A DNA stretch of 55,127 bases from an uncultured Candidatus Actinomarina sp. (GTDB lineage: Bacteria > Actinomycetota > Acidimicrobiia > Actinomarinales > Actinomarinaceae). How positions within the stretch are numbered: the first letter of the stretch is position 1; each line of letters opens with the position of its first letter. A program made the translations under genes and the position numbers. The stretch lies in contig CACODT010000008.1 of assembly GCA_902626065.1 (NCBI GenBank), forward strand, positions 1 to 55,127. The letters are read 5' to 3'. Positions 6,914-55,127 of this stretch are shown here, piece after piece. A model generated the notes under the pieces. The model saw nothing but the letters and a program-made list of their open reading frames with translations. It was not told the origin of the DNA and did not search any database.

Positions 6914-6919
6914 AGAATA
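6914..6919 (-). promoter_or_regulatory. -10 element TATTCT, 6 nt before ATG (leaderless)
   Basis: On the minus strand TATTCT ends 6 nt upstream of the ATG at 6907, which places the expected transcription start at the A of ATG. It sits back to back with the arsC promoter. Confidence 0.55.
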
Positions 6920-6928
6920 CCCTTGATT

Positions 6929-6934
6929 TAAAAT
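6929..6934 (+). promoter_or_regulatory. -10 element TAAAAT, 6 nt before ATG (leaderless)
   Basis: TAAAAT ends exactly 6 nt before the arsC ATG at 6941. There is no Shine-Dalgarno sequence between them, so the mRNA should begin at the start codon. Confidence 0.6.
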
Positions 6935-6940
6935 AGAATA

Positions 6941-7354
6941 ATGAAGATTTTAATTCTGTGTACTGGAAATTCATGTAGATCACAGATGGCTGAGGGACTA
7001 ATCAAAAATAAATATCCTGATTTCGAAGTAAGTTCAGCCGGGACTCACCCTGCTGAAACTGTAAATCCATATGCCGTAAAGGTCATGCAAGATATTGGTG
7101 TTGATATAAGTGAAAATTTTCCAAAAAATGTGGAACAGTTCGCTAATGATGAATTTGATTATGTTTTTACAGTATGTGATTCTGCAAAAGAAATTTGTCC
7201 AGTCTTTAATAATGCGAAAAATAAAGTTCACAAGCCATTTGTTGATCCAAAACGAGACTTTTATGACTCAGAAGATCATGCTATCGAAATCTATACAGAA
7301 ACTCGGAACTTAATAGAAGCATGGATAAAAGAATATGAAGATATTTGGAGTTAA
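6941..7354 (+). CDS. arsC: Arsenate reductase ArsC, low-molecular-weight phosphatase fold
   Basis: The 137-residue protein starts with the P-loop CTGNSCRSQMAEG (phosphatase CX5R-type loop, Cys near residue 8) and has the redox pair in VCDSAKEICP (CX6C, near residues 79-86), plus HKPFVDP. A P-loop cysteine combined with two further cysteines is the signature of thioredoxin-coupled arsenate reductases of the S. aureus pI258 type, not plain tyrosine phosphatases. It reduces arsenate to arsenite in the cytoplasm. No arsenite pump or ArsR is adjacent. The nitroreductase gene follows after 8 bases. Confidence 0.87.
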   Translation: MKILILCTGNSCRSQMAEGLIKNKYPDFEVSSAGTHPAETVNPYAVKVMQDIGVDISENFPKNVEQFANDEFDYVFTVCDSAKEICPVFNNAKNKVHKPFVDPKRDFYDSEDHAIEIYTETRNLIEAWIKEYEDIWS

Positions 7355-7362
7355 ATTTTTTA

Positions 7363-7923
7363 ATGAATGAAGTAATTGAAAATATTAAAAGTAGAAGAAA
7401 CACAAAAAATTTTGAAAATAAAGATGTTTCAGTAGAAGATATAAAAACAATTTTAGACGCAGGGACTTGGGCTCCAAATCATAGAGATACCCAACCGTGG
7501 AGATTTGTAGTTATACAAAAAAATGAATCCCTAAGAGAAAAAATAATTAATGGGATTATTGATTTGAAAGAAAAAGATTCAGGCAAAATGCAAACGGATG
7601 AACAAGTTTTGTCTATTAAGAATTCAGTAATGACCAAACCTGTATTAATTTTTGTTTACAGTTTGGTTGATGACAACCCAATTGTTTCGGAAGAAAACTA
7701 TGGAGCTGTGTGTTGCGCAATCCAAAATATATCACTTACTGCAACATCTATAGGGTTAGCAACAGGTTGGTCCACGGGAAAAATTTCCCAGATAGATAAT
7801 TTAAAATCGCTATTTGAATTAGAAGAAAATTTAAGAATTGTTGGTGTATTAACTGTTGGCTACCCTAAACCTCAACCTTCAAAAAAAAGAAAAAAAGTTG
7901 AGGATGTAACGAAATGGATTTAA
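7363..7923 (+). CDS. Nitroreductase-family flavoprotein
   Basis: It carries the family signatures IKSRRNTKNF at the N-terminus (FMN phosphate contact) and GTWAPNHRDTQPWRFVV, followed by GAVCCAIQNISLTATSIGLATGW and a C-terminal VGYPKP. This makes it an FMN-dependent NAD(P)H oxidoreductase. A TTG at 7345 would extend the frame into arsC; I choose the ATG at 7363 because GGAG (7347-7350) precedes it and the family N-terminus begins here. It is probably co-transcribed with arsC. The physiological substrate is unknown. Confidence 0.85.
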   Translation: MNEVIENIKSRRNTKNFENKDVSVEDIKTILDAGTWAPNHRDTQPWRFVVIQKNESLREKIINGIIDLKEKDSGKMQTDEQVLSIKNSVMTKPVLIFVYSLVDDNPIVSEENYGAVCCAIQNISLTATSIGLATGWSTGKISQIDNLKSLFELEENLRIVGVLTVGYPKPQPSKKRKKVEDVTKWI

Positions 7924-7930
7924 TTCATAC

Positions 7931-8899
7931 TTATACTTTATATTTTTCAGTTCTGTAAAGTTTAAAAAATGAATATGTTGCAGCTGAACATAGTAAATGC
8001 CATATCATATGAGCTTGCAACCAAGAATCAGGGTTACACCATGGATGATCAGGAACACCAGTTTCCCAAATTAATAATGCTCCAAAAAAAGAAATAAATC
8101 CTAAAAAGAACCAGGGTGTATATTTAATATCTGATGTTTTCTTAATATTAGGTATTAATGCTGGAACAAAATAAAAAAGCATTTCCCAATTTTCGTTAAA
8201 GTTTTGAAATGACTCAACAACAGGATTTCCAAATAATTGTTGAATTAGCAATACTGATATTCCTGAAGAGAATCTTCCGTAAATGTTTGGAAATTTTACA
8301 ACTATTTCTGTCGCTATCCAAAGACCAATACTTAATTCAAAAAGACTTATCCCAACACCAAACCCGCCTTCCAAAAACCAAGAATCATAAGCGTACCAAC
8401 TGACAAGTATTCCGTAGATGATCAAGTAAGTTTTTGAAGAGAAACCAATTAATTTTTTTAAGTTGTATATCCACAAAATTATTATGTACATAATCATTGA
8501 AAGATTATCCAACCATGAGCCAAACTCTGTATTAGTTCCATGCATTGCCATTGAGCCAGGCCCCAAGAAAGTTGATGCTCCCGCATACAAAATAGCAATA
8601 CTAGAAGATCCAAACATTGTAATTCCTTTTTCAGATGTTGCATCCTGGGAAAGTTTATAAAACATATAAATTCCAACAAAAACAAAGCCAAGATTTCCAA
8701 GAGTATTTGATGGTTCTCTCATGAATCCATCACTTACTCTTTCACACCATCGGGAAACTTCTCCAATTGCATTCTCGTTAGACGCTCTACTGCTCCAACC
8801 ATCTAATCCAAAAATTATATATAAAGTAAAAAAACCAAGGACAGAGGAAACAGCTATTTTGAGTGGAAGAAAATTATTTAGTTTATTTTTTTGATTCAT
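7931..8899 (-). CDS. CREST-superfamily (alkaline ceramidase-like) membrane hydrolase
   Basis: The 322-residue, roughly seven-helix membrane protein carries the ceramidase/CREST pattern: WCERVSDGFMREPSNTLGN in the first extramembrane segment, then SMAMHGTNTEFGSWLDN (Ser, His and Asp), and near the C-terminus LQAHMIWHLLCSA with the two further zinc-binding histidines. Eukaryotic relatives hydrolyse ceramide amide bonds or act as PAQR receptors; bacterial members are largely uncharacterised. Its start overlaps the end of the PLP-enzyme gene by 17 bases, so it belongs to that transcript. Amide hydrolase activity is inferred from the conserved residues only. Confidence 0.75.
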   Translation of the reverse strand: MNQKNKLNNFLPLKIAVSSVLGFFTLYIIFGLDGWSSRASNENAIGEVSRWCERVSDGFMREPSNTLGNLGFVFVGIYMFYKLSQDATSEKGITMFGSSSIAILYAGASTFLGPGSMAMHGTNTEFGSWLDNLSMIMYIIILWIYNLKKLIGFSSKTYLIIYGILVSWYAYDSWFLEGGFGVGISLFELSIGLWIATEIVVKFPNIYGRFSSGISVLLIQQLFGNPVVESFQNFNENWEMLFYFVPALIPNIKKTSDIKYTPWFFLGFISFFGALLIWETGVPDHPWCNPDSWLQAHMIWHLLCSAATYSFFKLYRTEKYKV

Positions 8900-10049
8900 T
8901 TAATGCAGAATCCATGTCTTCAATTAAGTCCTCAATGTTTTCAAGACCGACAGATATTCTAATCAAATCAATTGGAGCACTAGCTTCAGTTCCTTGGGCT
9001 TTATCATGTGTCATTAGATAAGGAAGTTCAATTAGAGACTCAACTCCACCTAAGCTGACTGCAAGCTTGTATAAATCTAGAGATTTCCAAAATTTTTCTT
9101 GATTAATACTTTCATGTAGGTAAAAGCTAAGCATTCCTCCAAAATAATCCATCTGCTTGACTGCAATTTCATGATTTTGATAATTTTCAAGTCCGGGATA
9201 TCTTACTTCTTTAATGAATTCTGAGTTATCAAGATACTCAGCTAACTTATGAGCATTTTCTGAATGAAGTTTTATTCTCGGACCTAATGTATAAAGACCT
9301 CTTTGTACTAAGTAAGAATCGAAAGGAGACATTACTGCTCCACCTTGTCTTTGATAAAGCATAAGTTCTTCGTGTAGTTCACTATCTTTACATACAACAG
9401 CACCACCTAAAGTATCACTATGCCCTCCAATATATTTTGTAGTTGAGTGCATAATAATGTCTACACCATGTTCAAAAGCTCTAGTTATAAATGGTGTTGA
9501 AAACGTACAATCAGCTACTAGGAAAGTTTTGTTCTTGTGAACAATTTCTGATATTTTTTGTAAATCATATAAATTCATTGATGGATTTGACGGTGATTCA
9601 ATCCAGGCGAGTTTTGTTTTCTCATTTAATAATTTCTCAAGTGCTTCATGATCTGAGAAATCGCAAAAATTTACCTCAACTCCACGTTCTCTTATTATCT
9701 TTGAAAAGTAGTTAGTTGTTCCTCCATAAACATCTTTTGTAATTACTACGTTGTCACCAGGCTTTGCTAATTCAGCGATTATGCTTACTGCTGACATCCC
9801 AGATGCCATTGCAAAAGCATGTTGATCTTCATAGTTTTCAATTCCCTCCAGCGAAGCCAAAGTTCTTTCAAATAATTCTCTTGATGGATTGTTAAGTCTT
9901 CCATAGAAATAATCAGACTCACCTGGAATATCGTTCAAATATGTTGTCGATAGGTGGATTGGTGGCATCACATCACCACTGAGTGATTCAAATCTTTTAT
10001 TTGTGTGAAGAGCTCTTGTGTTCATACCGTATTTTTTTGAATCAGCCAT
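8883..10049 (-). CDS. Cys/Met-metabolism PLP enzyme (cystathionine gamma-synthase/lyase type)
   Basis: The 388-residue fold-type I PLP protein has an N-terminal YGRLNNPS, ASGMSAVSI, KDVYGGTTNYF, WIESPSNP, VADCTFSTP and the PLP lysine in HSTTKYIGGHSD (near residue 204). Enzymes of this family interconvert cysteine, cystathionine and homocysteine. Sequence alone does not separate gamma-synthase from gamma-lyase or O-acylhomoserine sulfhydrylase, so no symbol is given. A TAAACT hexamer ends 6 nt before the ATG. The CREST membrane gene overlaps its 3' end. Confidence 0.85.
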   Translation of the reverse strand: MADSKKYGMNTRALHTNKRFESLSGDVMPPIHLSTTYLNDIPGESDYFYGRLNNPSRELFERTLASLEGIENYEDQHAFAMASGMSAVSIIAELAKPGDNVVITKDVYGGTTNYFSKIIRERGVEVNFCDFSDHEALEKLLNEKTKLAWIESPSNPSMNLYDLQKISEIVHKNKTFLVADCTFSTPFITRAFEHGVDIIMHSTTKYIGGHSDTLGGAVVCKDSELHEELMLYQRQGGAVMSPFDSYLVQRGLYTLGPRIKLHSENAHKLAEYLDNSEFIKEVRYPGLENYQNHEIAVKQMDYFGGMLSFYLHESINQEKFWKSLDLYKLAVSLGGVESLIELPYLMTHDKAQGTEASAPIDLIRISVGLENIEDLIEDMDSALNESKK

Positions 10050-10055
10050 GTTTGA

Positions 10056-10061
10056 AGTTTA
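10056..10061 (-). promoter_or_regulatory. -10 element TAAACT, 6 nt before ATG (leaderless)
   Basis: On the minus strand TAAACT ends 6 nt upstream of the ATG at 10049. No Shine-Dalgarno sequence is visible in the interval. Confidence 0.55.
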
Positions 10062-10110
10062 GATACGATTTAAACACTATGCATAATCAATTATTTCTTT
10101 TTAATAAAAA

Positions 10111-11313
10111 TTAGATTGACACATTAATTTTTTTGAATCCTCTTATACCAAAGGCACCTGTTCTCTCTGGGTCACTAATTAAATTAATCTCATTTTTAAA
10201 TAAATTTTCAAGTGATACTTCCAATTCCAATCTTGCCAGATGAGCACCTAAGCAAAAATGAACTCCACCACCAAAGCTGGTATGGTTTAGGTTCTTTCTT
10301 TCAAAATCAATTTTTTCTGGATTTTTAAAAGCAGTTTCGTCTCTGTTTGCAGAACCGAGAAGCATGGCAATTTTGGAGTTTTTAGGTAGTTTGATTCCGG
10401 ATAGTTCAGTGTCTTCTAATACCCATCGTTGAAAGAATTGAAGAGGACTATCCCATCGAATAAGCTCTTCTATGATTTTTTTAATATCAAAATCATGATT
10501 TAAGTTTTTTGTAGAAATATTGTTTAACAAAAGTGCAACAATTGAGTTTCCTATAGTATTAACGGTTGCTTCATGTCCTGCATTTAATAGTAAAATTACG
10601 GTACAAATTATTTGATCCTTAGTTAGTTGTTGGTTATTTTCAGATACTTGAGACAGCCTAGAAATCATATCGTTTTGTGGATTTTTATTTTTCTCATCAA
10701 TTAGATTATTCATATAAATATAGAAATCTTTTGCGGCAGATTCAGCTTCCGCTGCGCTTTCGTCAGAAACTTTTAGATCATACATTTTTACAATTGCGTG
10801 AGACCAATATAGAAACTTATCATAATCTTCTTTCGGTACTCCAAGAAGTTCTCCAATAACAGCTATCGAATAAGGTTGAGCATAATCTGCAAGTAGATCA
10901 AAACTACCACGATTAACTTTATCAAGAAGCTCTTTTGATTTATTCTCCATAAAAGGTCGCAATTCTTGAACTTGTCTATTTAGAAATGCTTTTGCAACTA
11001 AGCCTCTAAGTTCATCGTGTATGTTTCCTTCTAGATTTAATAAGTTAAATTCTTCTGTTTTCCAAAAATAGTCGTAATCTTTTGGATTTATTAATTTTTC
11101 ATCAGCGTCTTTTGTATAATCCTGAGGCTCTGAAGATATAAAATTTTTACTTTTTTGAATATCTTTTACATCTTCAAATTGTGTAATTAAATTCAATCCA
11201 GATGATTTATCATAATGAATTGGATACTCTTCTCTCAATTCTTTTAAATAAGGGTAGGGATTTTTAATGAAATCCTTATCTTCATTAGGAAATGAAATTT
11301 CTGGAATAGTCAT
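10111..11313 (-). CDS. Cytochrome P450
   Basis: The 400-residue soluble bacterial P450 has the I-helix oxygen-activation motif LNAGHEAT (near residue 245), the K-helix ExxR (EELIRW), and the heme-binding loop FGGGVHFCLGAHLARLE with the axial cysteine (near residue 357). There is no membrane anchor, so it probably takes electrons from a separate ferredoxin/reductase, which is not encoded nearby. The substrate cannot be predicted. TAATTT ends 6 nt before the ATG. Confidence 0.93.
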   Translation of the reverse strand: MTIPEISFPNEDKDFIKNPYPYLKELREEYPIHYDKSSGLNLITQFEDVKDIQKSKNFISSEPQDYTKDADEKLINPKDYDYFWKTEEFNLLNLEGNIHDELRGLVAKAFLNRQVQELRPFMENKSKELLDKVNRGSFDLLADYAQPYSIAVIGELLGVPKEDYDKFLYWSHAIVKMYDLKVSDESAAEAESAAKDFYIYMNNLIDEKNKNPQNDMISRLSQVSENNQQLTKDQIICTVILLLNAGHEATVNTIGNSIVALLLNNISTKNLNHDFDIKKIIEELIRWDSPLQFFQRWVLEDTELSGIKLPKNSKIAMLLGSANRDETAFKNPEKIDFERKNLNHTSFGGGVHFCLGAHLARLELEVSLENLFKNEINLISDPERTGAFGIRGFKKINVSI

Positions 11314-11319
11314 ATCATT

Positions 11320-11325
11320 AAATTA
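11320..11325 (-). promoter_or_regulatory. -10 element TAATTT, 6 nt before ATG (leaderless)
   Basis: On the minus strand TAATTT ends 6 nt upstream of the P450 ATG at 11313. Confidence 0.5.
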
Positions 11326-11391
11326 TCAGTTTTATCTGTATTTTCTATAGATTTATAAAAAATTTTTAGTGACCAGCTTCAAATACGTTGA

Positions 11392-11397
11392 TATCAT
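11392..11397 (+). promoter_or_regulatory. -10 element TATCAT, 7 nt before udp ATG
   Basis: TATCAT ends 7 nt before the ATG at 11405. GTGACC (4 of 6 matches to TTGACA) lies at 11369-11374 with a 17-nt spacer. The promoter would sit inside the longer GTG-started reading frame, which argues for the ATG as the real start. Confidence 0.5.
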
Positions 11398-11404
11398 CAA
11401 ACTT

Positions 11405-12169
11405 ATGACAGAAAAAAAATCAATGCTAGATGGAGAAAGGCAATACCACATACAATTAAAAGAAGGTGATGTTGCTGATTTTGTTATTCTTCCAGGTGAT
11501 CCGGGTAGAGTAGATTTTATTGCCGAACATTTTGATGATGCAAAAGAAATAGCATTTAACAGAGAGTATAAAACTGTTACAGGTACCTATAAAGGTAGGC
11601 CTGTAAGTGTGACTTCAACAGGAATAGGATGTCCATCAGCTGCAATAGCAATTGAAGAATTAGCAAATATTGGAGCCAAAACTTTAGTTAGATTAGGAAC
11701 ATCTGGAGCAATGCAAGATCACACAAGAATTGGTGATCTAGTAATAGCAAACGGAGCTGTTCGTCAAGAAGGTACATCACCACAATATATGCCAATTGAG
11801 TTTCCAGCTGTTCCATCTGCGGATATGGTTTCTGCTTTGGAATCAGCTGCAATTGATAGCAAATTAAAATATCATATTGGAGTTGTCCAATCAAAAGATT
11901 CATTTTATGGACAACATGATCCAGACTCAATGCCAGTTTCTCATGAGCTTAATCAAAAATGGGATGCTTGGGTAAGAGGTGGTGTTTTATGCTCGGAAAT
12001 GGAAGTATCAACTCTATTTGTGGTTGGAAGTTATAGAAGAGTCAGAACAGGAGCTTTGCTCGTCGTATATGGAGATCAAAAGAGACAGGAAGCCCTAAAT
12101 AAAGAGGATTATCTGGAATCAGTAAATAAAGCTACAAAAATTATTTTAGAGTCTAGTTTAAAGATATAA
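11405..12169 (+). CDS. udp: Uridine phosphorylase-type nucleoside phosphorylase
   Basis: The 254-residue member of the trimeric/hexameric PNP-UDP family has ILPGDPGRV near the start (phosphate site), VTSTGIGCPSAAIAIEEL, VRLGTSGAMQDHTRIGDLVI and CSEMEVSTLFVVG (ribose/base site). It cleaves uridine or a related pyrimidine nucleoside with phosphate to give ribose 1-phosphate and base in the cytoplasm. A GTG at 11369 would add 12 residues, but a promoter-like pair overlaps that stretch. A ribokinase gene lies close downstream on the opposite strand, so nucleoside and ribose salvage are grouped here. Confidence 0.85.
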   Translation: MTEKKSMLDGERQYHIQLKEGDVADFVILPGDPGRVDFIAEHFDDAKEIAFNREYKTVTGTYKGRPVSVTSTGIGCPSAAIAIEELANIGAKTLVRLGTSGAMQDHTRIGDLVIANGAVRQEGTSPQYMPIEFPAVPSADMVSALESAAIDSKLKYHIGVVQSKDSFYGQHDPDSMPVSHELNQKWDAWVRGGVLCSEMEVSTLFVVGSYRRVRTGALLVVYGDQKRQEALNKEDYLESVNKATKIILESSLKI

Positions 12170-12170
12170 T
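12165..12170 (+). promoter_or_regulatory. Consensus -10 TATAAT, 6 nt before ATG, spanning the udp stop
   Basis: A perfect TATAAT contains the udp stop codon (TAA at 12167-12169) and ends 6 nt before the ATG at 12177. The downstream small gene can therefore be transcribed independently, as a leaderless message. Confidence 0.65.
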
Positions 12171-12176
12171 TTACTC

Positions 12177-12401
12177 ATGGATTCAGGAAATTTAATAGCA
12201 TTTTTGAAAAAATTTAGCTTTGGTAGGTTGATTGCTTGTGGAATAACGCTAAGGGTGGTTATTGCAATTGTTGATGGAGTCTTTGGATTAGAAATAAATG
12301 AATTGGAAAATTTCAATATTTATATATTTATAATTGCTTTAATTTATACGATATTTTGGATGTTTAATAAAAGCTACTCCGATGACGAATACGAAGATTG
12401 A
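12177..12401 (+). CDS. Small two-helix membrane protein, unknown function
   Basis: The 74-residue protein has two hydrophobic segments (about residues 15-32 and 44-61) and an acidic tail ending SDDEYED. It has its own consensus -10 element 6 nt upstream, which supports the start. Its 3' end overlaps the convergent ribokinase gene by 28 bases. No family is recognised. Confidence 0.55.
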   Translation: MDSGNLIAFLKKFSFGRLIACGITLRVVIAIVDGVFGLEINELENFNIYIFIIALIYTIFWMFNKSYSDDEYED

Positions 12402-13249
12402 GTTCCTTTTTTAGTAACAGACAAGCTAGCTTTGTTGATTGCAAAATTAATTGCATCAGAAACTGAATAATTCTCTGATAGAGCAAATGAAAAAGCTCCT
12501 ACAAATGCATCACCAGCACCTGTAGTATCAATGACATCTACATTTGGAGCTTTGAATTCTTCTATTATGTCATCATTTACAAAAATCGCACCCTCTTCAC
12601 CAAGCGTAACTATTAGTTTTGAATTGATTTTATTTGAATATTTCAAAATATTTTCTTTAGTTAAATTGGTATTACTAATTATTTCAAATTCAGTTTCATT
12701 TGGTATTAGCCAGTCAACATTTTCAAGAAATTGCTCATCTAATAATCTTCCTGGAGCTGGATTAAATATGGTTGTAATATTATTTCTTTTTGCGAATTTA
12801 AAAACTTCATAGTTTACCTCCATTGGTATCTCTGCTTGTCCTACGATCAATGAAACATTCCCTATCTCTCCAAGAGATTTAATTGCTTTCTTTGAGTCAA
12901 TCTGATCATTTGCTCCCGATATAACGATAATTCTATTTTGTCCATTACCGTCAACCCAAATTGGAGCTACACCACTCGATCCATCAACTATTTGAATAAA
13001 ATCAGTTTTGACATTTTTTTCTTTAAAATTATCAATCGTCATATCTCTATACACATCAGTCCCAAGACATGCAATCATATAGGTATCTGCACCAAGCAAA
13101 CCTGCCATTACCGCCTGGTTTGCTCCTTTACCACCAAATCCCATTTGATAAGAATCTCCAAAAACCGTTTCTCCATCAAGGGGTACACGTTGTGCATATG
13201 AGATCTGATCAATATTTGCACTTCCTACAACACAAATTTTTGGATTCAT
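12374..13249 (-). CDS. rbsK: Ribokinase (PfkB family)
   Basis: The PfkB-family sugar kinase has an N-terminal VVGSANIDQISYAQRVP, the substrate glycines GFGGKGANQAVMAG, and the catalytic anion-hole loop DTTGAGDAFVGAF near the C-terminus. The NxD and GGKGANQA motifs favour ribokinase over fructokinase or adenosine kinase. It phosphorylates ribose at O5. The start is placed at 13249 rather than at the upstream ATG at 13276 because the family N-terminus begins here and TACTTT ends exactly 6 nt before this ATG. Confidence 0.88.
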   Translation of the reverse strand: MNPKICVVGSANIDQISYAQRVPLDGETVFGDSYQMGFGGKGANQAVMAGLLGADTYMIACLGTDVYRDMTIDNFKEKNVKTDFIQIVDGSSGVAPIWVDGNGQNRIIVISGANDQIDSKKAIKSLGEIGNVSLIVGQAEIPMEVNYEVFKFAKRNNITTIFNPAPGRLLDEQFLENVDWLIPNETEFEIISNTNLTKENILKYSNKINSKLIVTLGEEGAIFVNDDIIEEFKAPNVDVIDTTGAGDAFVGAFSFALSENYSVSDAINFAINKASLSVTKKGTQSSYSSSE

Positions 13250-13255
13250 AATTTC

Positions 13256-13261
13256 AAAGTA
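13256..13261 (-). promoter_or_regulatory. -10 element TACTTT, 6 nt before ATG (leaderless)
   Basis: On the minus strand TACTTT ends 6 nt upstream of the ribokinase ATG at 13249, supporting that start over the one at 13276. Confidence 0.5.
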
Positions 13262-13287: not shown

Positions 13288-13293
13288 TAGGAT
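13288..13293 (+). promoter_or_regulatory. -10 element TAGGAT, 6 nt before ATG (leaderless)
   Basis: TAGGAT ends exactly 6 nt before the ATG at 13300. Confidence 0.5.
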
Positions 13294-13299: not shown

Positions 13300-14280
13300 A
13301 TGAATATAAATTGGAATTCTAAAGTCTTATCCTCAATTCAACCAGTAATAGATAACTTGAGATACATTTCAATAGATTTTGAAAAACTAAGTAAAGAGTC
13401 AATAAAATTTGCAGGCTATGACTTTGAAATAAAACAAGATCCAAGTTTATTAGATGATGTGGATAGTTTTATAAGAAAAACGATGCTAATTAATACTCTC
13501 AACTTTGCATTTACTGATTTTGAAACATCAACAAAATATGCTTTAAAAGAGGACAAAAGTACTCTTTCAGATACTGATGCAATGGTACATCAAATTAATT
13601 TAGCGATCTCAAACGGAGTCCCAATTTTAGATGGATACTTTATGGCTGAAATTTCCGATGAAATATTTCAAAATTTGTTTTCAGCGAATATACCAATGCC
13701 CATGATTAAAGAGAAAGTAGATGTACTAAATCAAACTGGAAAAACATTAGTAAAACATTACGAGGGTGACTGGATAAATTTTATTAATGACGGTCCACGA
13801 AAGCTTTACGCAGATGGAGAGGGTCTAATTGAAAGACTAATTGGTAACTTTTCAAGGTTTGATGATTTTTCATTATTTGAGGATAATAAAATTTATTTTC
13901 TGAAACTAGCTCAGCTTGCATTTTGGGGACTGCATAGAGAGCTCTCTGGCTTGCAACTTTTTCATATTGAAGACATGGAGAACATGACTGCATTTGCTGA
14001 TTACATACTTCCAGTTGCACTTGAGCATTTAGAAATAACTAAATATGTACCTGAATTAAAAAAACAAATACAAGATGGTAAATTAATTGAAAAAGATTCA
14101 ATAGAGGAGATAGAATTGAGGGCAACAACTATATTTGTCACCGCAAAAATGTCTGAAATAATAAATGAAAATAGAATCGATGATGAAAAAATTTTAATAC
14201 CTCAATTAGATTTCAAGTTATGGACTGAATATCACGGAGATGAGAAACCTCATCATTTAACTAAAACAATTATGTATTAG
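13300..14280 (+). CDS. Queuosine salvage protein (QNG1/DUF2419-like)
   Basis: The 326-residue protein matches the layout of the queuosine 5'-phosphate N-glycosylase family: a central INLAISNGVPILDGYFM (family: small residue, then GIPI), YFLKLAQLAFWG (family KRAQ, then W-G), and the C-terminal block ADYILPVALEHLEITKYVPEL followed by EEIELRATTIFVTAKM (family ADYRVPQxLxxxGxLxY, then EIEIRAxTI). The enzyme releases queuine from queuosine nucleotide so that the base can be reused in tRNA. No tgt or queuine transporter lies in the window. The assignment rests on motif recall; the stop overlaps msrA by 4 bases. Confidence 0.7.
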   Translation: MNINWNSKVLSSIQPVIDNLRYISIDFEKLSKESIKFAGYDFEIKQDPSLLDDVDSFIRKTMLINTLNFAFTDFETSTKYALKEDKSTLSDTDAMVHQINLAISNGVPILDGYFMAEISDEIFQNLFSANIPMPMIKEKVDVLNQTGKTLVKHYEGDWINFINDGPRKLYADGEGLIERLIGNFSRFDDFSLFEDNKIYFLKLAQLAFWGLHRELSGLQLFHIEDMENMTAFADYILPVALEHLEITKYVPELKKQIQDGKLIEKDSIEEIELRATTIFVTAKMSEIINENRIDDEKILIPQLDFKLWTEYHGDEKPHHLTKTIMY

Positions 14281-21384: not shown

Positions 21385-21412
21385 TTGCAATATAAAAATA
21401 TTTCACTAACTT
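21385..21412 (+). promoter_or_regulatory. ptsI promoter TTGCAA-16-TAACTT, 6 nt before ATG
   Basis: The -35-like TTGCAA (21385-21390) is followed by a 16-nt spacer and TAACTT (21407-21412), which ends 6 nt before the ptsI ATG at 21419. There is no Shine-Dalgarno, so a leaderless message is predicted. Confidence 0.55.
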
Positions 21413-30167: not shown

Positions 30168-30173
30168 ACTTTA
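30168..30173 (-). promoter_or_regulatory. -10 element TAAAGT, 6 nt before ATG (leaderless)
   Basis: On the minus strand TAAAGT ends 6 nt upstream of the ATG at 30161. Confidence 0.5.
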
Positions 30174-32979: not shown

Positions 32980-33007
32980 TTGCCATTTATTTTTTTTGAA
33001 ATAATGT
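32980..33007 (+). promoter_or_regulatory. WhiB promoter TTGCCA-16-TAATGT, 6 nt before ATG
   Basis: TTGCCA (32980-32985), a 16-nt spacer and TAATGT (33002-33007) end 6 nt before the ATG at 33014. The region has no Shine-Dalgarno sequence, so a leaderless transcript is predicted. Confidence 0.55.
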
Positions 33008-36236: not shown

Positions 36237-36331
36237 CAATTTCTGCTTTTTTTGATTTAAAACTCATGTATACATCTTAAAGAAAAATGATTTGATGTAA
36301 TAATAAATTTTTTGAATAATTTAATATGCGA

Positions 36332-36337
36332 TATAAT
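36332..36337 (+). promoter_or_regulatory. Consensus -10 TATAAT, 6 nt before ATG (leaderless)
   Basis: A perfect TATAAT ends 6 nt before the ATG at 36344. It overlaps the upstream in-frame ATG at 36326, which therefore cannot be the start. Confidence 0.65.
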
Positions 36338-36343: not shown

Positions 36344-36691
36344 ATGGACATACAAATTAAATCATCAAGATCTGTTCTTGCGACAGATAGTGCCGTTAAA
36401 AAACTTATTGAACTCAAAGCTGCAGAATCAAATGAAAATAGTTTTCTAAGAATGGGTGTTAAGCCTGGTGGGTGTTCTGGCCTTTCTTACGAAATGTTTT
36501 TTGATACTGAAAGATTTGAAAATGATATATTCGAATCTTACGATGGTGTTGAAATTGGAATTGATTCACAGAGTCTCGAACATATTAAAGGTTCAACTTT
36601 AGATTATAAAGAAGGTTTAATGGAGACAGGATTTTCCATTGATAATCCAAATGTTTCAAGAACCTGTGGTTGCGGAAATAGCTTTAGTTAA
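36344..36691 (+). CDS. HesB/IscA/ErpA-type iron-sulfur carrier
   Basis: The A-type carrier of 115 residues has three conserved cysteines: VKPGGCSGLSYEM near residue 43, and the C-terminal RTCGCGNSF pair. It binds an Fe-S cluster and passes it to apo-proteins. The start at 36344 is chosen over 36326 from the TATAAT position. It overlaps the convergent GlnR-like gene by 8 bases. Other Suf/Isc genes are not in the window. Confidence 0.92.
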   Translation: MDIQIKSSRSVLATDSAVKKLIELKAAESNENSFLRMGVKPGGCSGLSYEMFFDTERFENDIFESYDGVEIGIDSQSLEHIKGSTLDYKEGLMETGFSIDNPNVSRTCGCGNSFS

Positions 36692-39050: not shown

Positions 39051-39254
39051 TTACAGTTTATCAAATATGCTACTAATATCTTGAGTTATTCTATCCCACT
39101 CTTTATCTTCTGATTTTGTTATCGTAATAAAACCAGGACCAAAAAATACAGATAGCACTCCATCTACTGAATTTAATTTATCTGCAAGATCATTTTCATT
39201 AAATTCTGTATCTATTTTTTTTGCATTTGGATTTGGTGTATCAATTAATTCCAT
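39051..39254 (-). CDS. Stand-alone Nfu N-terminal domain protein
   Basis: The start is placed at MELIDTPNPNAKKI (39254); the longer frame to 39317 adds an unrelated hydrophobic lead. The 67 residues match the Nfu_N domain: TPNPNAxK at the start, then DKLNSVDGVLSVFFGPGFITITK, with a W later. In Nfu scaffolds this domain is followed by a CxxC NifU domain, which is missing here, so only the accessory half is present. TAACCT lies 5 nt before the ATG. An IscA-type carrier is 2.5 kb away. Confidence 0.72.
   Translation of the reverse strand: MELIDTPNPNAKKIDTEFNENDLADKLNSVDGVLSVFFGPGFITITKSEDKEWDRITQDISSIFDKL
39055..39060 (-). promoter_or_regulatory. -10 element TAAACT, 6 nt before ATG, inside the upstream gene
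   Basis: On the minus strand TAAACT ends 6 nt upstream of the ATG at 39048 and lies in the last codons of the Nfu-type gene. Confidence 0.5.
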
Positions 39255-43525: not shown

Positions 43526-43531
43526 TAAAAT
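43526..43531 (+). promoter_or_regulatory. -10 element TAAAAT, 6 nt before ATG (leaderless)
   Basis: TAAAAT ends exactly 6 nt before the ATG at 43538, favouring that ATG over the TTG two codons earlier. Confidence 0.6.
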
Positions 43532-43537: not shown

Positions 43538-44380
43538 ATGAGTGGAGATCCAGGATATTTTGGTCCAGAATCAATGATGTGGAAAGTTAATAAAGAAATT
43601 ACAGTGCTTTTTGGAGGGGCAAGAGCATTATTAATGCACGCAGCCCATCCATTAATTGCCGCAGGAGCAAGGCAGACATCTTTTTATCAAAGAGATCCCT
43701 GGAAAAGATTAATTAGAACGTTATCTTTACAGAACTCAGTTACATTTGGAACAAAAGAAGAAGCTAATGAAAGTGCCACAAGGATAAATCGTCTACATGA
43801 AGTTATAAAGGGAGAAGATGAGGTTACCGGAGATATTTATGATGCTCTTGACCATGAGCAGTTACTCTGGGTTCATGCATGCCTTCAATTATCTTCAATT
43901 TATTTTTATGAACAAACTGTAAGAAAATTAAGTGAAGAAGAAAAAAATCAATATCATCAAGAAAATATGTTGTCTGCAAAACTTGTACTTATTGATATTG
44001 AAAGTATGCCTAGTACACACAAAGAACTAAAAGAATGGGTAAAAAACAAGAGTAAAGAAAAAAATTACTTATTGATGACAGATGTTGCTAAAGACGTACA
44101 GGATATAATATCTGGGGGACCTGTACCAAAACATATCAAACCAATCTGGCCTTTTATTTCATTCATTGCTTTTCATACACTTCCAGAAGAATTTAAGAGT
44201 ATATATGGAATAAAAATGACGAAATTAAAGTGGTTAGTACTCAAATTCAACTTAAATTTTTTAAAAATTACAAGACCTTTTCTACCACCATTTTTTAGAT
44301 TAATACCACCAGCTAGATGGGCAAACCAAAGAATTACTAAAAATCCAAGTTTAAAATTTAATGATAAAGCAAATATATAA
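43538..44380 (+). CDS. DUF2236/MpaB-type oxygenase family protein
   Basis: In the 280-residue protein the N-terminal VLFGGARALLMHAAHPLIAAG is the DUF2236 hallmark (His near residues 33-36), followed by RLIRTLSLQNSVTFGTKEEA, RINRLHEVIKGEDEVTGDIYDALDHEQLLWVHACL and a late FLPPFFRLIPPARW. DUF2236 includes latex-clearing protein and MpaB, heme-containing oxygenases; the conserved histidines are kept, so heme binding is plausible. The actual substrate is unknown. TAAAAT 6 nt upstream sets the start. Confidence 0.8.
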   Translation: MSGDPGYFGPESMMWKVNKEITVLFGGARALLMHAAHPLIAAGARQTSFYQRDPWKRLIRTLSLQNSVTFGTKEEANESATRINRLHEVIKGEDEVTGDIYDALDHEQLLWVHACLQLSSIYFYEQTVRKLSEEEKNQYHQENMLSAKLVLIDIESMPSTHKELKEWVKNKSKEKNYLLMTDVAKDVQDIISGGPVPKHIKPIWPFISFIAFHTLPEEFKSIYGIKMTKLKWLVLKFNLNFLKITRPFLPPFFRLIPPARWANQRITKNPSLKFNDKANI

Positions 44381-48340: not shown

Positions 48341-48346
48341 TATAAT
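48341..48346 (+). promoter_or_regulatory. Consensus -10 TATAAT, 6 nt before ATG (leaderless)
   Basis: A perfect TATAAT ends 6 nt before the ATG at 48353. Confidence 0.65.
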
Positions 48347-48352: not shown

Positions 48353-48601
48353 ATGAATCTTTTTGAACTTATTTATGCTTTCATTAAAAAAAATTTCAAA
48401 ACTGTTCAAGAAACAGAAGATCCAAATGAAAAAAGAAAAAAATTGCTTCAGATATTTTTTGGAGTTGCACTTGCTTTAGGGTACGCCGTTCTTCATGTAC
48501 CCCCAGATGTAAGTATTAGAGAAATTATTTATGCTTTTGGAGTTCTTTTTATAACTTTGTATTTCGCATTCCGTACTTTAAAATACTTTAAACTCATTTA
48601 A
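48353..48601 (+). CDS. Small membrane protein, tandem copy 1
   Basis: The 82-residue protein has a charged N-terminal half (KNFKTVQETEDPNEKRKK), two hydrophobic helices and a C-terminus FRTLKYFKLI. The next gene encodes a protein of the same topology and ending (FRVLRVLKII), so the two are probably diverged tandem duplicates. It has its own consensus -10 element. The function is unknown. Confidence 0.55.
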   Translation: MNLFELIYAFIKKNFKTVQETEDPNEKRKKLLQIFFGVALALGYAVLHVPPDVSIREIIYAFGVLFITLYFAFRTLKYFKLI

Positions 48602-48607
48602 AATAAT

Positions 48608-48613
48608 TAAGAT
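48608..48613 (+). promoter_or_regulatory. -10 element TAAGAT, 6 nt before ATG (leaderless)
   Basis: TAAGAT ends exactly 6 nt before the ATG at 48620. Confidence 0.5.
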
Positions 48614-48619
48614 ACATAT

Positions 48620-48832
48620 ATGTTTCATAGATTTAAAAACTTAGATAAAAAACAAAAATTAGAACTTTATAAAGTACTTGGCTATTCCATTTGTGCTCTT
48701 ATTGGAGGTGCAGGTAGCGCAAAGCAGATAGGTGTAGACGCTGATTTGGGAGATATAATATTGGGTTGGGCTATTGTTCTTGTAATAATCTTTGTAGTCT
48801 TTAGAGTACTTAGAGTTCTTAAAATAATTTAG
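48620..48832 (+). CDS. Small membrane protein, tandem copy 2
   Basis: The 70-residue protein has a basic N-terminus (RFKNLDKKQK), two hydrophobic helices separated by QIGVDADLGD, and the end FRVLRVLKII, matching its upstream neighbour in plan. It has a separate -10-like element. The function is unknown. Confidence 0.55.
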   Translation: MFHRFKNLDKKQKLELYKVLGYSICALIGGAGSAKQIGVDADLGDIILGWAIVLVIIFVVFRVLRVLKII

Positions 48833-48837
48833 ATTTA

Positions 48838-48843: not shown

Positions 48844-48849
48844 TCTCTA

Positions 48850-49443
48850 ATGAGATTTTCAAAAGAAGAAGAATATTTACGTCAGAAAGATAAGAAACTA
48901 AAAAAAATAATTGATATCAATGATCATATAGAATTTAACCCAAATAAAAAAAATCAATTTGATACGCTTGTAGGCATCGTTATCTCTCAATTTATATCCA
49001 CAAAAGCAGCTGATTCTATTTTTAAAAATATTAGAGAAAATTTTAATGCAGACTATTTAAATGAAAAACACTTTCAAAATTTGAATATAGAAGAAATTAA
49101 AAAGTTGGGTTTAAGTAGAAATAAAGCAAAAACAATTAAACAGATTTCTGACCTTTACTTAAATGAAAATATTAAAGATTTATTAGATTTAAATGATAAA
49201 CAGCTTAATCAAACCTTGTTATCAATTTTTGGAATTGGGCCATGGTCATTGAACATGTTTGAAATATTTTGTATTGGTAAATTAGATGTATTCTCTTCAA
49301 AAGATGCAGGACTTAGGTTAGCGATGAATAATGCTTCTATGGTAAAACCTGAAAGTGACTGGAAAAAATATGATGAATATGTTGAGAAGTGGTCACCTTA
49401 TAAAACGATAGCTTCTTTACATCTTTGGAAAACTGTTGATTGA
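48850..49443 (+). CDS. HhH-GPD DNA glycosylase (AlkA-like, 3-methyladenine glycosylase II)
   Basis: The 197-residue protein has FDTLVGIVISQFISTKAAD (first helices), IEEIKKLGLSRNKAKTI, and the helix-hairpin-helix LLSIFGIGPWSLNMFEIF with the downstream catalytic Asp in SSKDAGLRLA. There is no Fe-S cysteine loop, so it fits the AlkA/MagIII side rather than Nth. It excises alkylated bases. It is shorter than E. coli AlkA because the N-terminal domain is missing. Confidence 0.87.
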   Translation: MRFSKEEEYLRQKDKKLKKIIDINDHIEFNPNKKNQFDTLVGIVISQFISTKAADSIFKNIRENFNADYLNEKHFQNLNIEEIKKLGLSRNKAKTIKQISDLYLNENIKDLLDLNDKQLNQTLLSIFGIGPWSLNMFEIFCIGKLDVFSSKDAGLRLAMNNASMVKPESDWKKYDEYVEKWSPYKTIASLHLWKTVD

Positions 49444-49513
49444 ATAAAGCCTCTGGTAAGTAGCGATATTTAAACTAAATAAGAATATATACTTAAAGTG
49501 ATTGGATTTTTAA

Positions 49514-49834
49514 TTGTCAAATGGCTTAAAAACAATTTGTTTTGATATAGATGGAACAATTTGTTCCATAAATTTAGATGATTACTCAAATGCACAACCT
49601 TTTGAGGAAACTATAAAAAAAATTAACATGTTATATGATTTAGGACACAAGATAATTTTTAATACTGCACGTGGATTTTTAAGCGGAAAAGACTGGGAAA
49701 AAACTACAAAAGATCAATTGAAAATATGGGGAGTAAAATATCATGAATTATATTTTAATAAACCCGCAGCTGATTATTACATTGACGACAAAGCCTTAGA
49801 ACTTAAAAATTGGGAAGATATACTAATAAAATGA
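49514..49834 (+). CDS. Small HAD-family phosphatase of the glycan cluster
   Basis: The 106-residue protein has the HAD motif I DIDGTICS near residue 12, motif II IIFNTARG, a lysine in FNKPAADYYIDD and the late acidic motif YIDDKALE. It resembles the short capsule-biosynthesis phosphatases (EcbF/BcbF-like). It starts with TTG and overlaps the NeuB-type gene (ATGA), which suggests it dephosphorylates a substrate or product of that enzyme. Confidence 0.82.
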   Translation: MSNGLKTICFDIDGTICSINLDDYSNAQPFEETIKKINMLYDLGHKIIFNTARGFLSGKDWEKTTKDQLKIWGVKYHELYFNKPAADYYIDDKALELKNWEDILIK

Positions 49835-51336: not shown

Positions 51337-51385
51337 TTTACATTTTTTATTTAATTTTCTAAAAGCTAAGTTAAAGTACATGCTC

Positions 51386-51391
51386 TAAAGT
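51386..51391 (+). promoter_or_regulatory. -10 element TAAAGT, 6 nt before GTG (leaderless)
   Basis: TAAAGT ends 6 nt before the GTG start at 51398, the only GTG start in the strict 6-nt set. Confidence 0.5.
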
Positions 51392-51397
51392 AATAAA

Positions 51398-52291
51398 GTG
51401 GTTGAAAATAATGGTTTAAGGTTTAAAAAATATTATTGTTTTAGTTGTTATTCAAATAATTCTACCGATACAAAATACTTTAAAAAAGCATTCGAACACC
51501 AATTTAAAATTTTAAAGTGTAAAACTTGTTTTACCCAGTATATTGACAAAATTCCCGAAGATATAAAAACATACACACATATTTATGATCATGGTGGTAG
51601 AGATAGCAAAGTTGACTTGAATTCAATCTTTACTAAATTAAGGATATATAAAGCAAAAAGGTATATTGCTAAACACTGTTCGGAATATTTATTTGATGGA
51701 AAAAAAATTTTAGATTATGGTTCTGGAGATGGTTACTTATCATATACTTTCAAACTGGTTAATCAAAATTTAAAGGTATATGCAACCGATTATTTATACT
51801 ACGAAAATGAATTTTACAGAAATGTCCAATTTATAAACTTGGATGACATTTATAGTAAAGACGAAAAATATGATTTGATTGTTCTTAGGCATGTGTTGGA
51901 ACATACTGAAGATCCTTTTAGAATAATAAAAAAATTACTGACTTTACTTGAACCTGAAGGATGCATTATGGTAGAGGTTCCCAATCATGATATAAAAACA
52001 AATACTTTATTAAAAATTTTTGGTACTCATTATTCTCAAATTGGTATGCCGTGGCATTTTAATCATTTTAACTCAGCTGATTTTGAAAAAAATCTTACGC
52101 AAAATAGATTAAAATTTTCAAAAAATTCAATACCTGTCTTGGGCCAATCAATAAGTATGGTATTGTTTCAAGATAAAATATTTTTTGACAATACTGGGTT
52201 GCTTGCATTGTTGTTTTATCCTTTTCAAGTATTAATAGACTCAGTAACCTCCTCATTCACAGCTTTAGTAGTTAAAATATACAATAAATAA
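51398..52291 (+). CDS. SAM-dependent methyltransferase with zinc-ribbon N-terminus
   Basis: In the 297-residue protein, residues about 9-45 have two CxxC pairs (YCFSC and KCKTC), a rubredoxin-like zinc ribbon. Residues about 95-210 are a class I methyltransferase with ILDYGSGDGYLSYTF (motif I), YDLIVLRHVLEHTEDPF (motif II/post) and IMVEVPNH. It is common in O-antigen/exopolysaccharide loci as a sugar methyltransferase. GTG start with TAAAGT 6 nt upstream. Confidence 0.85.
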   Translation: MVENNGLRFKKYYCFSCYSNNSTDTKYFKKAFEHQFKILKCKTCFTQYIDKIPEDIKTYTHIYDHGGRDSKVDLNSIFTKLRIYKAKRYIAKHCSEYLFDGKKILDYGSGDGYLSYTFKLVNQNLKVYATDYLYYENEFYRNVQFINLDDIYSKDEKYDLIVLRHVLEHTEDPFRIIKKLLTLLEPEGCIMVEVPNHDIKTNTLLKIFGTHYSQIGMPWHFNHFNSADFEKNLTQNRLKFSKNSIPVLGQSISMVLFQDKIFFDNTGLLALLFYPFQVLIDSVTSSFTALVVKIYNK

Positions 52292-52294
52292 GAG

Positions 52295-54070
52295 TTAAGA
52301 ATTTTTAATTGCCAAGATATTTTTCATTTCTTCATCATCAATGTATGGATGCATGTCATATAAATTTGAACTTACAATGTTTCCCTTAGAATCTGTCCTA
52401 GATTTAACCCTTGGTTGAAAATTAATATTATTATCAATTTTAAGTTCTACAACTAATGGTAATTTAATTTTGTTAAAATCATGTAGAAACTTTTTATAGT
52501 TGTAATTATCAACTTTTAAATAGTCCAATTTATGTGCTTGAGAAATTGATTTTAAATCTGGAAATGATAGTCCTGTTGTGGAGTCAATGCCTATTAAATT
52601 GTCTGAAAAATAATTGTTTTGAGTTTGTCTTATTGAATGGTAACCATTGTTTGAGATAACAAATAACAAAATATTTAGATCATATTCGGCAATTGTTGCA
52701 AGTTCTTGAATATTCATTTGAAGGCTTCCGTCACCTTCAAAACATATGATTCGTTTATTTTTACTCGATATTGCAGAACCAATTGCTGCAGGAAGGCCAT
52801 ATCCCATCGACCCGGAGGTTGAGTTAGTAAAAAAACGTTGATTTTTTTTTAAAAGTAATGCCTGATTTGGCACTATTGCTGCAGTAGCATTAGCAGTTAC
52901 AAAAATATCATTCTCTTTAGTATGCTCGGATAACTCTAAACAAAAGATATAAGGATTTAATTCCTTTGTATCGATATAGCCTTCATTTTTTATTGAGTAT
53001 TCGGTTTTAATTGTTTTTGCCCACTCTTTAAACTCTTTGTGATTTTCTTTATTTACCAGTTCACAATTAAATTCATTAAAAAATTTATTGAGATCAGTGT
53101 TAATGGATAGATCAACATTATTAGCTATAGTTTTTTTTACTAATTCTGATTTATCGATATCAACATAGCAAAAAAATTTATCTTTTCCAAAATTATCAAA
53201 ATTATAACCTATTTGCCTAATGTTTAGACTTGAACCAAGAACAAGAATTAAATCAGAACATTCAAGTATTAAGTTACCGCTTCTATCTCCTAAAGTTCCT
53301 GCTCTACCGTAAAAATTTTCATGGTTTTCCCACATTAAATCATGACCATTAAATGCAGTTAATACAGGAAGATCTGTTTTCTTAATAAATTTTCTAAAAT
53401 TTTCTACAGAATTAGAAGACCACACACCTCCACCAGCTAATACAACTGGTCTTTTTGATTCATTTATCTTTTTTGAAAGTGTAATTAATTTTGAATTTAT
53501 ATTTTTATTGTTTTCATTAAGAATGAAATTATTAGATTTATTTTTTTCAATGTATTCATCTCCTTGAACATCAATTGGTATATCTATCCATACAGGCCCT
53601 TTTCTTCCACTATTCATTATTTTTAATGCTTTGTTGAGTTCAAAACTAATATCATCTTTTTTAGTAATAGTTTTAGAATATTTAGTTATTTTTTTAACCA
53701 TATCTACTATTGGTGCTTCCTGATCTCCAAGTTGTCTAAGATTACTATCAAAATTGAGGGTTTCAGTCCTAACCTGTCCTGATAAAATTAACATTGGAAT
53801 CGAGTCTCCATACGCACCAAAAACACCGTTTAGGGTATTAATTCCACCAGGACCTGCAGTAACACAAATTACACTTACCTTACCACTTGCTTTCGAGTAA
53901 CCATCTGCAGCCATAGCACATGACTGTTCATGATGAAAAAATGTTGCATTTAAGTTTGTGTTTCTTGAAAGAGAATCATTTAGATGCATTGCAGCTCCGC
54001 CTGTAACCATAAAAATGTCTTTAATATTATTTTCGACAAGAATTTGAGCAACTTTATCAGAATTTTTCAT
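52295..54070 (-). CDS. Thiamine-diphosphate-dependent enzyme, acetolactate-synthase-like
   Basis: The 591-residue protein has the full POX/ALS fold. The N-terminal Pyr domain has GGAAMHLND and the activating Glu in FFHHEQSCAMAADGYSKAS; a central domain has VVLAGGGVWSS; the PP domain has the TPP loop FEGDGSLQMNIQELATI and SNNGY. It lies in a glycan cluster rather than with ilvC/ilvN, so a role in building a branched sugar (compare YerE) or another glycan precursor is more likely than valine synthesis. That role is inference. Confidence 0.85.
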   Translation of the reverse strand: MKNSDKVAQILVENNIKDIFMVTGGAAMHLNDSLSRNTNLNATFFHHEQSCAMAADGYSKASGKVSVICVTAGPGGINTLNGVFGAYGDSIPMLILSGQVRTETLNFDSNLRQLGDQEAPIVDMVKKITKYSKTITKKDDISFELNKALKIMNSGRKGPVWIDIPIDVQGDEYIEKNKSNNFILNENNKNINSKLITLSKKINESKRPVVLAGGGVWSSNSVENFRKFIKKTDLPVLTAFNGHDLMWENHENFYGRAGTLGDRSGNLILECSDLILVLGSSLNIRQIGYNFDNFGKDKFFCYVDIDKSELVKKTIANNVDLSINTDLNKFFNEFNCELVNKENHKEFKEWAKTIKTEYSIKNEGYIDTKELNPYIFCLELSEHTKENDIFVTANATAAIVPNQALLLKKNQRFFTNSTSGSMGYGLPAAIGSAISSKNKRIICFEGDGSLQMNIQELATIAEYDLNILLFVISNNGYHSIRQTQNNYFSDNLIGIDSTTGLSFPDLKSISQAHKLDYLKVDNYNYKKFLHDFNKIKLPLVVELKIDNNINFQPRVKSRTDSKGNIVSSNLYDMHPYIDDEEMKNILAIKNS

Positions 54071-54109
54071 AATAATAAATAAGTTTAAAAGATTATAATA
54101 AAAATAGAT

Positions 54110-54982
54110 TTGAAAAAATGTCTAATTTTTGGTGCCACAGGATGGTTAGGTAAAGCAACTATTGCAAAAATTATCGACGACTACCCCCAAAATGAATTAA
54201 CACTTATATCTTCAAAAAGTAAAAAAATTGAATATAAAAATAAGTTATATGAAGTAGGTTCTTTCAATGATTTTTTGAATATTAAAAACAACACATTTGA
54301 TTATTTTTATTGTTATGCATTTTTAACTGGTAATAACATTGAGAGCAAAGGAAAAGAACATTTTTTAAATGAAACTAATAAAATAATAGATGCAACTTCA
54401 ACATTTTTATCTCAAAACACAATTAAAAAAGGACTTCTCAGTTCTTCAGGAGCAGTTTATTGGTCAGAAACAAAGAAAGAAAACCTGTATTCAAGTCAAA
54501 AAAAGAGACAAGAAATAGAATTTTTAAAATCTTTTGAAAATAATCAATCACTCTATCATATAGCAAGAATATTCTCAGTCATTGCTCGAGATTATAATGT
54601 CGAATTTAATTATGCATTTAATTCTTTTGTTTCCCAAGCTAAGAAAAATAAAAAAATAGTTATTACTTCTAAGAAAAAAGTTGAAAGGTCGTATTTAATA
54701 TTTGAAAATATGATAGATTATTTCCAAAAAAGTAAGGAATCAAAAATTTATGATGCTGCTAATTTTGATATAGATCTTGTTGAACTTGCTGAAATTATTT
54801 CAGAAATATTTGATTGCAATATCGAATACCCTAAATCATACAATAATTCTTCACAAAAAGATTTATACAAAAGCAAAGATAAGTCATTCCGAAATAATTT
54901 TAAAGAAAAAAAAGGTTTAAAACAGGAGATTCTTAAGGTGATAAATCAAACTAAAGAGCATCCTATGAAAGTTATAAATTAA
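54110..54982 (+). CDS. NAD-dependent epimerase/dehydratase family protein
   Basis: The 290-residue extended SDR starts with TTG: KKCLIFGATGWLGKATIAKI is the NAD site, then LLSSSGAVYW (catalytic Ser strand) and YSSQKKRQEIEFL (YxxxK with Tyr and Lys present). It probably modifies a nucleotide-linked sugar. It is divergent from the TPP-enzyme gene; TATAAT (54094-54099) lies 10 nt upstream. Confidence 0.8.
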   Translation: MKKCLIFGATGWLGKATIAKIIDDYPQNELTLISSKSKKIEYKNKLYEVGSFNDFLNIKNNTFDYFYCYAFLTGNNIESKGKEHFLNETNKIIDATSTFLSQNTIKKGLLSSSGAVYWSETKKENLYSSQKKRQEIEFLKSFENNQSLYHIARIFSVIARDYNVEFNYAFNSFVSQAKKNKKIVITSKKKVERSYLIFENMIDYFQKSKESKIYDAANFDIDLVELAEIISEIFDCNIEYPKSYNNSSQKDLYKSKDKSFRNNFKEKKGLKQEILKVINQTKEHPMKVIN

Positions 54983-55022
54983 TTTATTTAAGAAATAGTT
55001 AATTAAACTATTTTCCTAAATA

Positions 55023-55028
55023 TAAAAT
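55023..55028 (+). promoter_or_regulatory. -10 element TAAAAT, 6 nt before ATG (leaderless)
   Basis: TAAAAT ends exactly 6 nt before the ATG at 55035. Confidence 0.55.
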
Positions 55029-55034
55029 AGCTCT

Positions 55035-55127
55035 ATGAAAAAAATAAGCATTATTGCGACAGCGTTCAATGAAGAATCAAACGTATTAGAACTTTATAAA
55101 CAACTTAATGAAGTAACATCTAAAGTT
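55035..55127 (+). CDS. GT2-family glycosyltransferase, C-terminus beyond window
   Basis: The 31 residues visible start KKISIIATAFNEESNVLELYKQL, the opening strand and helix of GT2 transferases of the DPM/ArnC type (family: SVVIPAYNEEENI). The catalytic DxD lies past the window edge. It fits the surrounding glycan genes. Confidence 0.72.
   Translation, partial: MKKISIIATAFNEESNVLELYKQLNEVTSKV

Follow-up and report, generated by a model that had tools for sequence, protein, structure and literature searches.

TAnnnT elements peaking 6 nt upstream of ATG and GTG start codons suggest -10-only promoters of leaderless genes in an uncultured Candidatus Actinomarina

Introduction

Leaderless mRNAs were already known in Actinobacteria, as an earlier note on the DNA studied here had pointed out. 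Zheng et al. (2011) interpreted a TA-like signal located ~10 bp upstream of the start codon as a leaderless promoter, which was found for ~20% of actinobacterial genes (PMC3160421), and Cortes et al. (2013) demonstrated leaderless mRNAs in Mycobacterium tuberculosis by mapping transcription start sites (TSSs), with such mRNAs accounting for 26% of the genes with a mapped primary TSS (PMC3898074). Candidatus Actinomarinales, which belong to the class Acidimicrobiia in GTDB, possess genomes of ~1.1 Mb with ca. 32.5% GC and two sigma factors (PMC7771536). Our literature search, whose coverage is incomplete, found neither a report linking Actinomarina with leaderless transcription nor a promoter or TSS map for the lineage, and the one remark on Actinomarina in a marine TSS-map paper is that it may have been lost at the filtering step (PMC5069720).

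The window analyzed in the present study, a stretch of 55,127 nucleotides, is one whole contig of a 20-contig, 1.02-Mb assembly of an uncultured Candidatus Actinomarina sp. (completeness 89%, GC ~32%). The genome encodes two sigma factors, and the genomes of its genus-mates are all ~0.6–1.1 Mb in size. In size, GC content, and number of sigma factors it agrees with Candidatus Actinomarinales, and the best named hit of its RpoC, in a scan from which near records were excluded, was an Acidimicrobiia MAG at 64%. From this window alone, the earlier note had proposed that a TAnnnT hexamer ends exactly 6 nt before the ATG or GTG of 18 genes and acts as a -10 element, so that the start codon itself would provide the first transcribed base (+1).

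Results

The hexamer is present at the claimed distance at 18 of 18 positions. The sites are given below, with the site at 13249 represented by the better of two overlapping hexamers and with relatives denoted by their handles.

6914..6919, minus strand: putative -10 box TATTCT, 6 nt to ATG 6907; divergent from 6941; kept in G011
6929..6934, plus strand: putative -10 box TAAAAT, 6 nt to ATG 6941; member of the low molecular weight phosphatase family (PF01451); G011 also has the box at 6 nt
10056..10061, minus strand: putative -10 box TAAACT, 6 nt to ATG 10049; Cys/Met metabolism PLP enzyme; TAAAAT at 6 nt in G011
11320..11325, minus strand: putative -10 box TAATTT, 6 nt to ATG 11313; cytochrome P450; kept in G011
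12165..12170, plus strand: putative -10 box TATAAT, 6 nt to ATG 12177; 74-aa conserved small protein; kept in G011 and L165
13258..13263, minus strand: putative -10 box TATACT, 8 nt to ATG 13249; PfkB-type kinase; TATACT at 6 nt in relatives
13288..13293, plus strand: putative -10 box TAGGAT, 6 nt to ATG 13300; queuosine salvage protein
21407..21412, plus strand: putative -10 box TAACTT, 6 nt to ATG 21419; PEP-utilising enzyme; kept in G011
30168..30173, minus strand: putative -10 box TAAAGT, 6 nt to ATG 30161; TAGAAT at 6 nt in G011, protein 51% identical
33002..33007, plus strand: putative -10 box TAATGT, 6 nt to ATG 33014; WhiB transcription factor; TAACGT at 6 nt in G011
36332..36337, plus strand: putative -10 box TATAAT, 6 nt to ATG 36344; Fe-S cluster biosynthesis protein
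39055..39060, minus strand: putative -10 box TAAACT, 6 nt to ATG 39048; located at the end of the preceding gene on the same strand (2-nt gap); kept in G011
43526..43531, plus strand: TAAAAT, 6 nt to ATG 43538; the weakest of the list; not conserved in G011
48341..48346, plus strand: putative -10 box TATAAT, 6 nt to ATG 48353; 82-aa protein; at 6 nt in L157, at 7 nt in L159 and L160, missing in L158
48608..48613, plus strand: putative -10 box TAAGAT, 6 nt to ATG 48620; 70-aa small protein; kept in L157 and L158
48838..48843, plus strand: putative -10 box TAAAAT, 6 nt to ATG 48850; HhH-GPD DNA repair protein
51386..51391, plus strand: TAAAGT, 6 nt to GTG 51398; methyltransferase; no ortholog in the sequences available for comparison
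55023..55028, plus strand: TAAAAT, 6 nt to ATG 55035; gene truncated by the contig end

Because the starts had originally been picked with the motif in view, genes were re-called over nearly the whole genome by a home-made codon-based model that is blind to upstream motifs, which yielded 1010 genes at a coding density of 0.94; start errors of this caller blur the spacing peak, and the genome scan left out the masked contig C20 and 265 bases of C2. For counting, genes were classed as divergent (n = 268), preceded by a same-strand gap of at least 40 nt (n = 181), or operon-like (n = 542). TAnnnT ended 6 nt before the motif-blind start in 62 of the 268 divergent genes against a background of 14.3 (binomial p = 9.7e-23), in 27/181 gap genes against 8.0 (p = 3.4e-8), and in 45/542 operon-like genes against 14.6 (p = 5.4e-11); such genes, 134 genome-wide, are hereafter called TA6 genes. 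A flat genome-wide distribution, which had been named beforehand as the refuting outcome, is thus excluded by a sharp peak at 6 nt. The "strict" 6-nt rule itself holds only as the mode of the distribution, because true enrichment was also found at 7 and 8 nt, and for the divergent class at 9 nt as well, whereas 4 and 5 nt were depleted. For the same reason, eight more genes that had been listed with the hexamer at 5, 7 or 8 nt mix signal with noise: 7 and 8 nt are enriched, but 5 nt is depleted.

Chance combined with selection might produce a list of this kind, given that TAnnnT is frequent in a genome of 69% A+T and that fitting starts can be picked. The background of 4–5% per position in upstream DNA lends some weight to such an origin; it was 4.4–5.3% per site in the real upstream DNA of first-in-transcript genes, which makes the earlier estimate of ~4% about right. 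Background alone would account for ~37 of the 134 TA6 genes, so some of the listed sites are chance; the 13249 start and the 43538 site appear to belong to this group. The motif-blind peak in divergent genes (62 versus 14) argues against chance, as do the lack of a peak at internal in-frame ATGs (TAnnnT at 6 nt in 62/4839, i.e. 1.3%), at TTG, and in Escherichia coli analyzed by the same procedure (0/105). The same 6-nt peak moreover recurs in the relatives G011 and G007, and also in G014, a member of the class Acidimicrobiia with 55% GC, where the box lies at 6 nt in 24/244 genes versus a background of 1.9. Chance is therefore refuted for the whole set, if not for a few single sites, and as a general explanation we consider it hardly credible.

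In the window, the motif-blind starts gave a box at 6 nt in 13 of 62 called genes, where ~2–3 would be expected from a background of 2.7–5.3% per site. The blind caller missed or shifted six of the listed starts (6941, 12177, 13249, 33014, 48353, and 48620), most of which are supported by orthologs. At 13249, a TACTTT (13256-13261) does exist at 6 nt, but the overlapping TATACT at 8 nt is the better reading, and the former is probably by-catch, judging from the relatives, where TATACT itself lies at 6 nt. Elements within upstream genes or across their ends, another feature claimed earlier, were confirmed in 22 of the 45 operon-like TA6 genes.

The share of genes with the box at 6 nt, 23% of divergent versus 8% of operon-like genes, bears on a further alternative, that is, that the box is not a promoter but an AT-rich, translation-related element in the mRNA leader, as in Bacteroidetes. 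AT-rich upstream translation signals do occur in some AT-rich lineages, and the StartLink paper describes AT-rich ribosome-binding sites in the FCB group (PMC9581028). A translation signal, on the other hand, should not depend on the position of a gene in its transcript, as the box does. The exclusion of TTG starts, the 6-nt register together with a T at -1, which match RNA polymerase geometry, and the consensus TA(A/T)AAT also speak against a translational role, and we judge it very improbable.

The nature of the start codon was examined by scanning all in-frame codons in the vicinity of gene starts, irrespective of which of them served as the start. The box occurred 6 nt before ATG in 10.4% of cases versus 2.8% at control distances and before GTG in 9.9% versus 3.6%, and these were the only two enriched among all codons (Fisher 1.6e-13). 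TTG was not enriched, with 1.5% at 6 nt versus 2.4% at control distances; it otherwise serves as a start, in 84 called genes, of which two have a box. This restriction to codons beginning with a purine is what transcription starting on the RTG itself predicts, and a leadered promoter would not give rise to it. In addition, T occupied position -1 in 70% of first-in-transcript TA6 genes versus 40% of other first genes (p = 8e-7), which fits a pyrimidine/purine initiator and agrees with a start on the codon. The 16S rRNA ends with the anti-Shine-Dalgarno sequence CCTCC, and a Shine-Dalgarno (SD) tetramer was found in 6/134 TA6 genes versus 199/857 others, an exclusion that is partly mechanical because the two motifs compete for the same bases; these counts bear out the separate class of SD genes described before.

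These observations also help to decide whether the boxes, as real promoters, mostly produce very short leaders of 1–5 nt instead of initiating exactly on the codon. The shoulder at 7–9 nt favors short leaders, and the spacing there is conserved, with the box kept in 52/58 genes in G011 and 23/30 in G007. The mode at 6 nt with a sharp lower edge and depletion at 5 nt, as well as the ATG/GTG restriction and the T at -1 of the 6-nt sites, instead point to initiation on the codon, and short leaders as the prevailing arrangement appear unlikely.

Conservation was assessed with orthologs defined as reciprocal-best proteins, whose median identity was 89% for G011. The box at exactly 6 nt was kept in 45/47 genes in G011, compared with 64% at control distances (p = 1e-6), and in 23/24 in G007, compared with 41% (p = 7e-8), although both genomes are close relatives, also of each other, so that individual sites are weakly tested. 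In orthologs, box and spacing are retained while the six spacer bases drift. The site at 36344 illustrates this pattern: of 30 genomes from the genus, its own included, 29 carry TAnnnT at 6 nt, and the remaining one has TATAAT at 5 nt; over the 30 genomes the box is 87–93% identical, compared with only 31–52% for the spacer bases from -6 to -2. At 13300, TAAGAT or TAGGAT is found at 6 nt in relatives despite proteins that are only ~59% identical, the box being placed at 6 nt in the closest seven of the relatives listed and at 7 nt in some others. The box at 48850 is kept only in L157, the closest relative, and is absent in L158, L159, and G011. Among the 16 window sites with an available ortholog, that at 43538 alone lacks any relative carrying the box at 6 nt; the hexamer is present in the window as claimed, but is not conserved in G011, the sole relative checked.

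The consensus of the box is TA(A/T)AAT, with A at position -8 in 69%. A TTGACA -35 element (at least 5/6 matches, spacing of 15–20 nt) was found in 1/89 cases versus 3.5 in shuffled sequences, which means that it is rarer than by chance, and when the first 20 kb were scanned for both boxes together, nothing above shuffles was obtained. The near absence of -35 boxes reported before therefore holds insofar as no TTGACA consensus exists, but a faint TT at -35/-34 remains (34% versus 18%). A TGn extension, with TG at -15/-14, was enriched (13% versus a background of 4%), yet it is limited to a minority and does not define an extended -10 class. Because both TT and TGn are enriched, RNA polymerase may keep weak upstream contacts. 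As a separate observation, the block 36306-36318 upstream of the putative promoter of 36344 (approximately -38 to -26) is partly as conserved as the -10 box over the 30 genomes; it may serve as an operator, provide a contact upstream in the promoter, or represent the divergent gene's own promoter.

Two loci with small proteins deserve mention. The frame at 12177-12401 on the plus strand encodes a 74-aa protein that is 95% identical in G011, has a conserved TATAAT at 6 nt, and belongs to no Pfam family; it overlaps the end of a convergent gene by 28 nt, was missed by the blind gene caller, and is likely an overlooked small gene. At 48353-48832, also on the plus strand, proteins of 82 and 70 aa lie in tandem, each with its own candidate -10 box and neither in a Pfam family, and the 70-aa protein at 48620 has homologs in only 5/42 genomes of the genus.

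RbpA is a helper of mycobacterial promoters and is often regarded as common to Actinobacteria in general. The RbpA family (PF13397) was detected in 0/20 Acidimicrobiia genomes, with a positive Corynebacterium control, though a negative result with a single Pfam model does not prove absence, whereas the CarD/TRCF domain (PF02559) was matched in 19/20 Acidimicrobiia. The match in the genome studied here (G000:C5:22670-22870, minus strand) lies in a CarD-sized frame of 196 aa.

Discussion

We propose, with a probability of about 0.92, that the boxes are -10-only promoters of leaderless genes, used by the housekeeping sigma factor. The earlier claim of a -10 element placing +1 on the start codon is supported by the codon restriction, the T at -1, the conservation, and the paucity of SD motifs; the transcript 5′ ends, the acting sigma factor, and leaderless translation are inferred. 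According to this proposal, region 2 of sigma would recognize TAnnnT, which tends to be TATAAT-like in the AT-rich genome, and the 6-nt spacer, or discriminator, would make transcription begin with the A or G of ATG/GTG, while spacers of 7–9 nt would place +1 up to ~3 nt before the start codon. The ribosome would then start on the 5′-terminal AUG or GUG without SD contact, and a second class of genes would possess ordinary leaders with SD sites.

The excess over background at 6–9 nt amounts to 31% in the divergent, 18% in the gap, and 7% in the operon-like class. This corresponds to ~26% for first-in-transcript genes and ~15% for the entire gene set, which are lower bounds. An EM mixture model assigned 46% of first genes to the leaderless class; with simulated and with shifted data, the weights came out at 0.23–0.56 and the likelihood gain was much lower, and the excess over background was adopted because of this instability of the null fits.

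A more speculative idea, which we think has a fairly small chance of being right, is that in the apparently RbpA-lacking Acidimicrobiia, above all streamlined Actinomarina, a polymerase with sigma and CarD reads almost solely the -10 box, and that initiation on the codon has helped to pare intergenic DNA. With equal reserve, the same reading could be extended to promoters placed back to back within ~30 bp, each having its upstream region inside the neighboring gene, as might be the case at 6907 and 6941, which are separated by only 33 bp and whose boxes are both kept in G011. Shorter divergent gaps on TA-led sides (median 70 versus 126 for SD) had been considered as a sign of streamlining, but the candidate was rejected because a control distance of 20–23 nt gave 71.5.

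The rule of TAnnnT, 6–9 nt, and ATG/GTG can be used to correct starts, such as 6941, 12177, and 33014, and to expose small genes that callers miss, and its predictions of 5′ ends are exact to the nucleotide. On the evidence of sequence, the present results widen the leaderless architecture to an abundant, uncultured, AT-rich ocean lineage, and add to the described systems a low-GC streamlined case, a corrected spacing distribution, and codon-blind and conservation tests.

The closest described counterparts are the TA-led genes of Zheng et al., where the same signal stands beside an SD-led class, as it does here (PMC3160421). Their actinobacteria are high-GC organisms with TAnnnT, whereas the signal in the present genome of 32% GC is more TATAAT-like, as the same authors reported for low-GC Firmicutes (PMC3160421). 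M. tuberculosis (PMC3898074) and Mycobacterium smegmatis (PMC6448022) likewise share with it a TANNNT -10 element, the lack of a -35 consensus, a purine at +1 after a pyrimidine, and ATG/GTG starts. The mycobacterial features come from TSS mapping and include a preference for C at -1; those described here were read from DNA, with T at -1. Since RbpA was not found, the mycobacterial mechanism is not transferable as a whole, and, if confirmed, -10-only leaderless promoters would work here without RbpA. The share of putative leaderless genes estimated above as a lower bound may fall within the range for Actinobacteria (PMC3160421) and M. tuberculosis (PMC3898074). The architecture is thus of an already known kind, and since G014, an Acidimicrobiia member with 55% GC, shares the peak, it is not an invention of Actinomarina.
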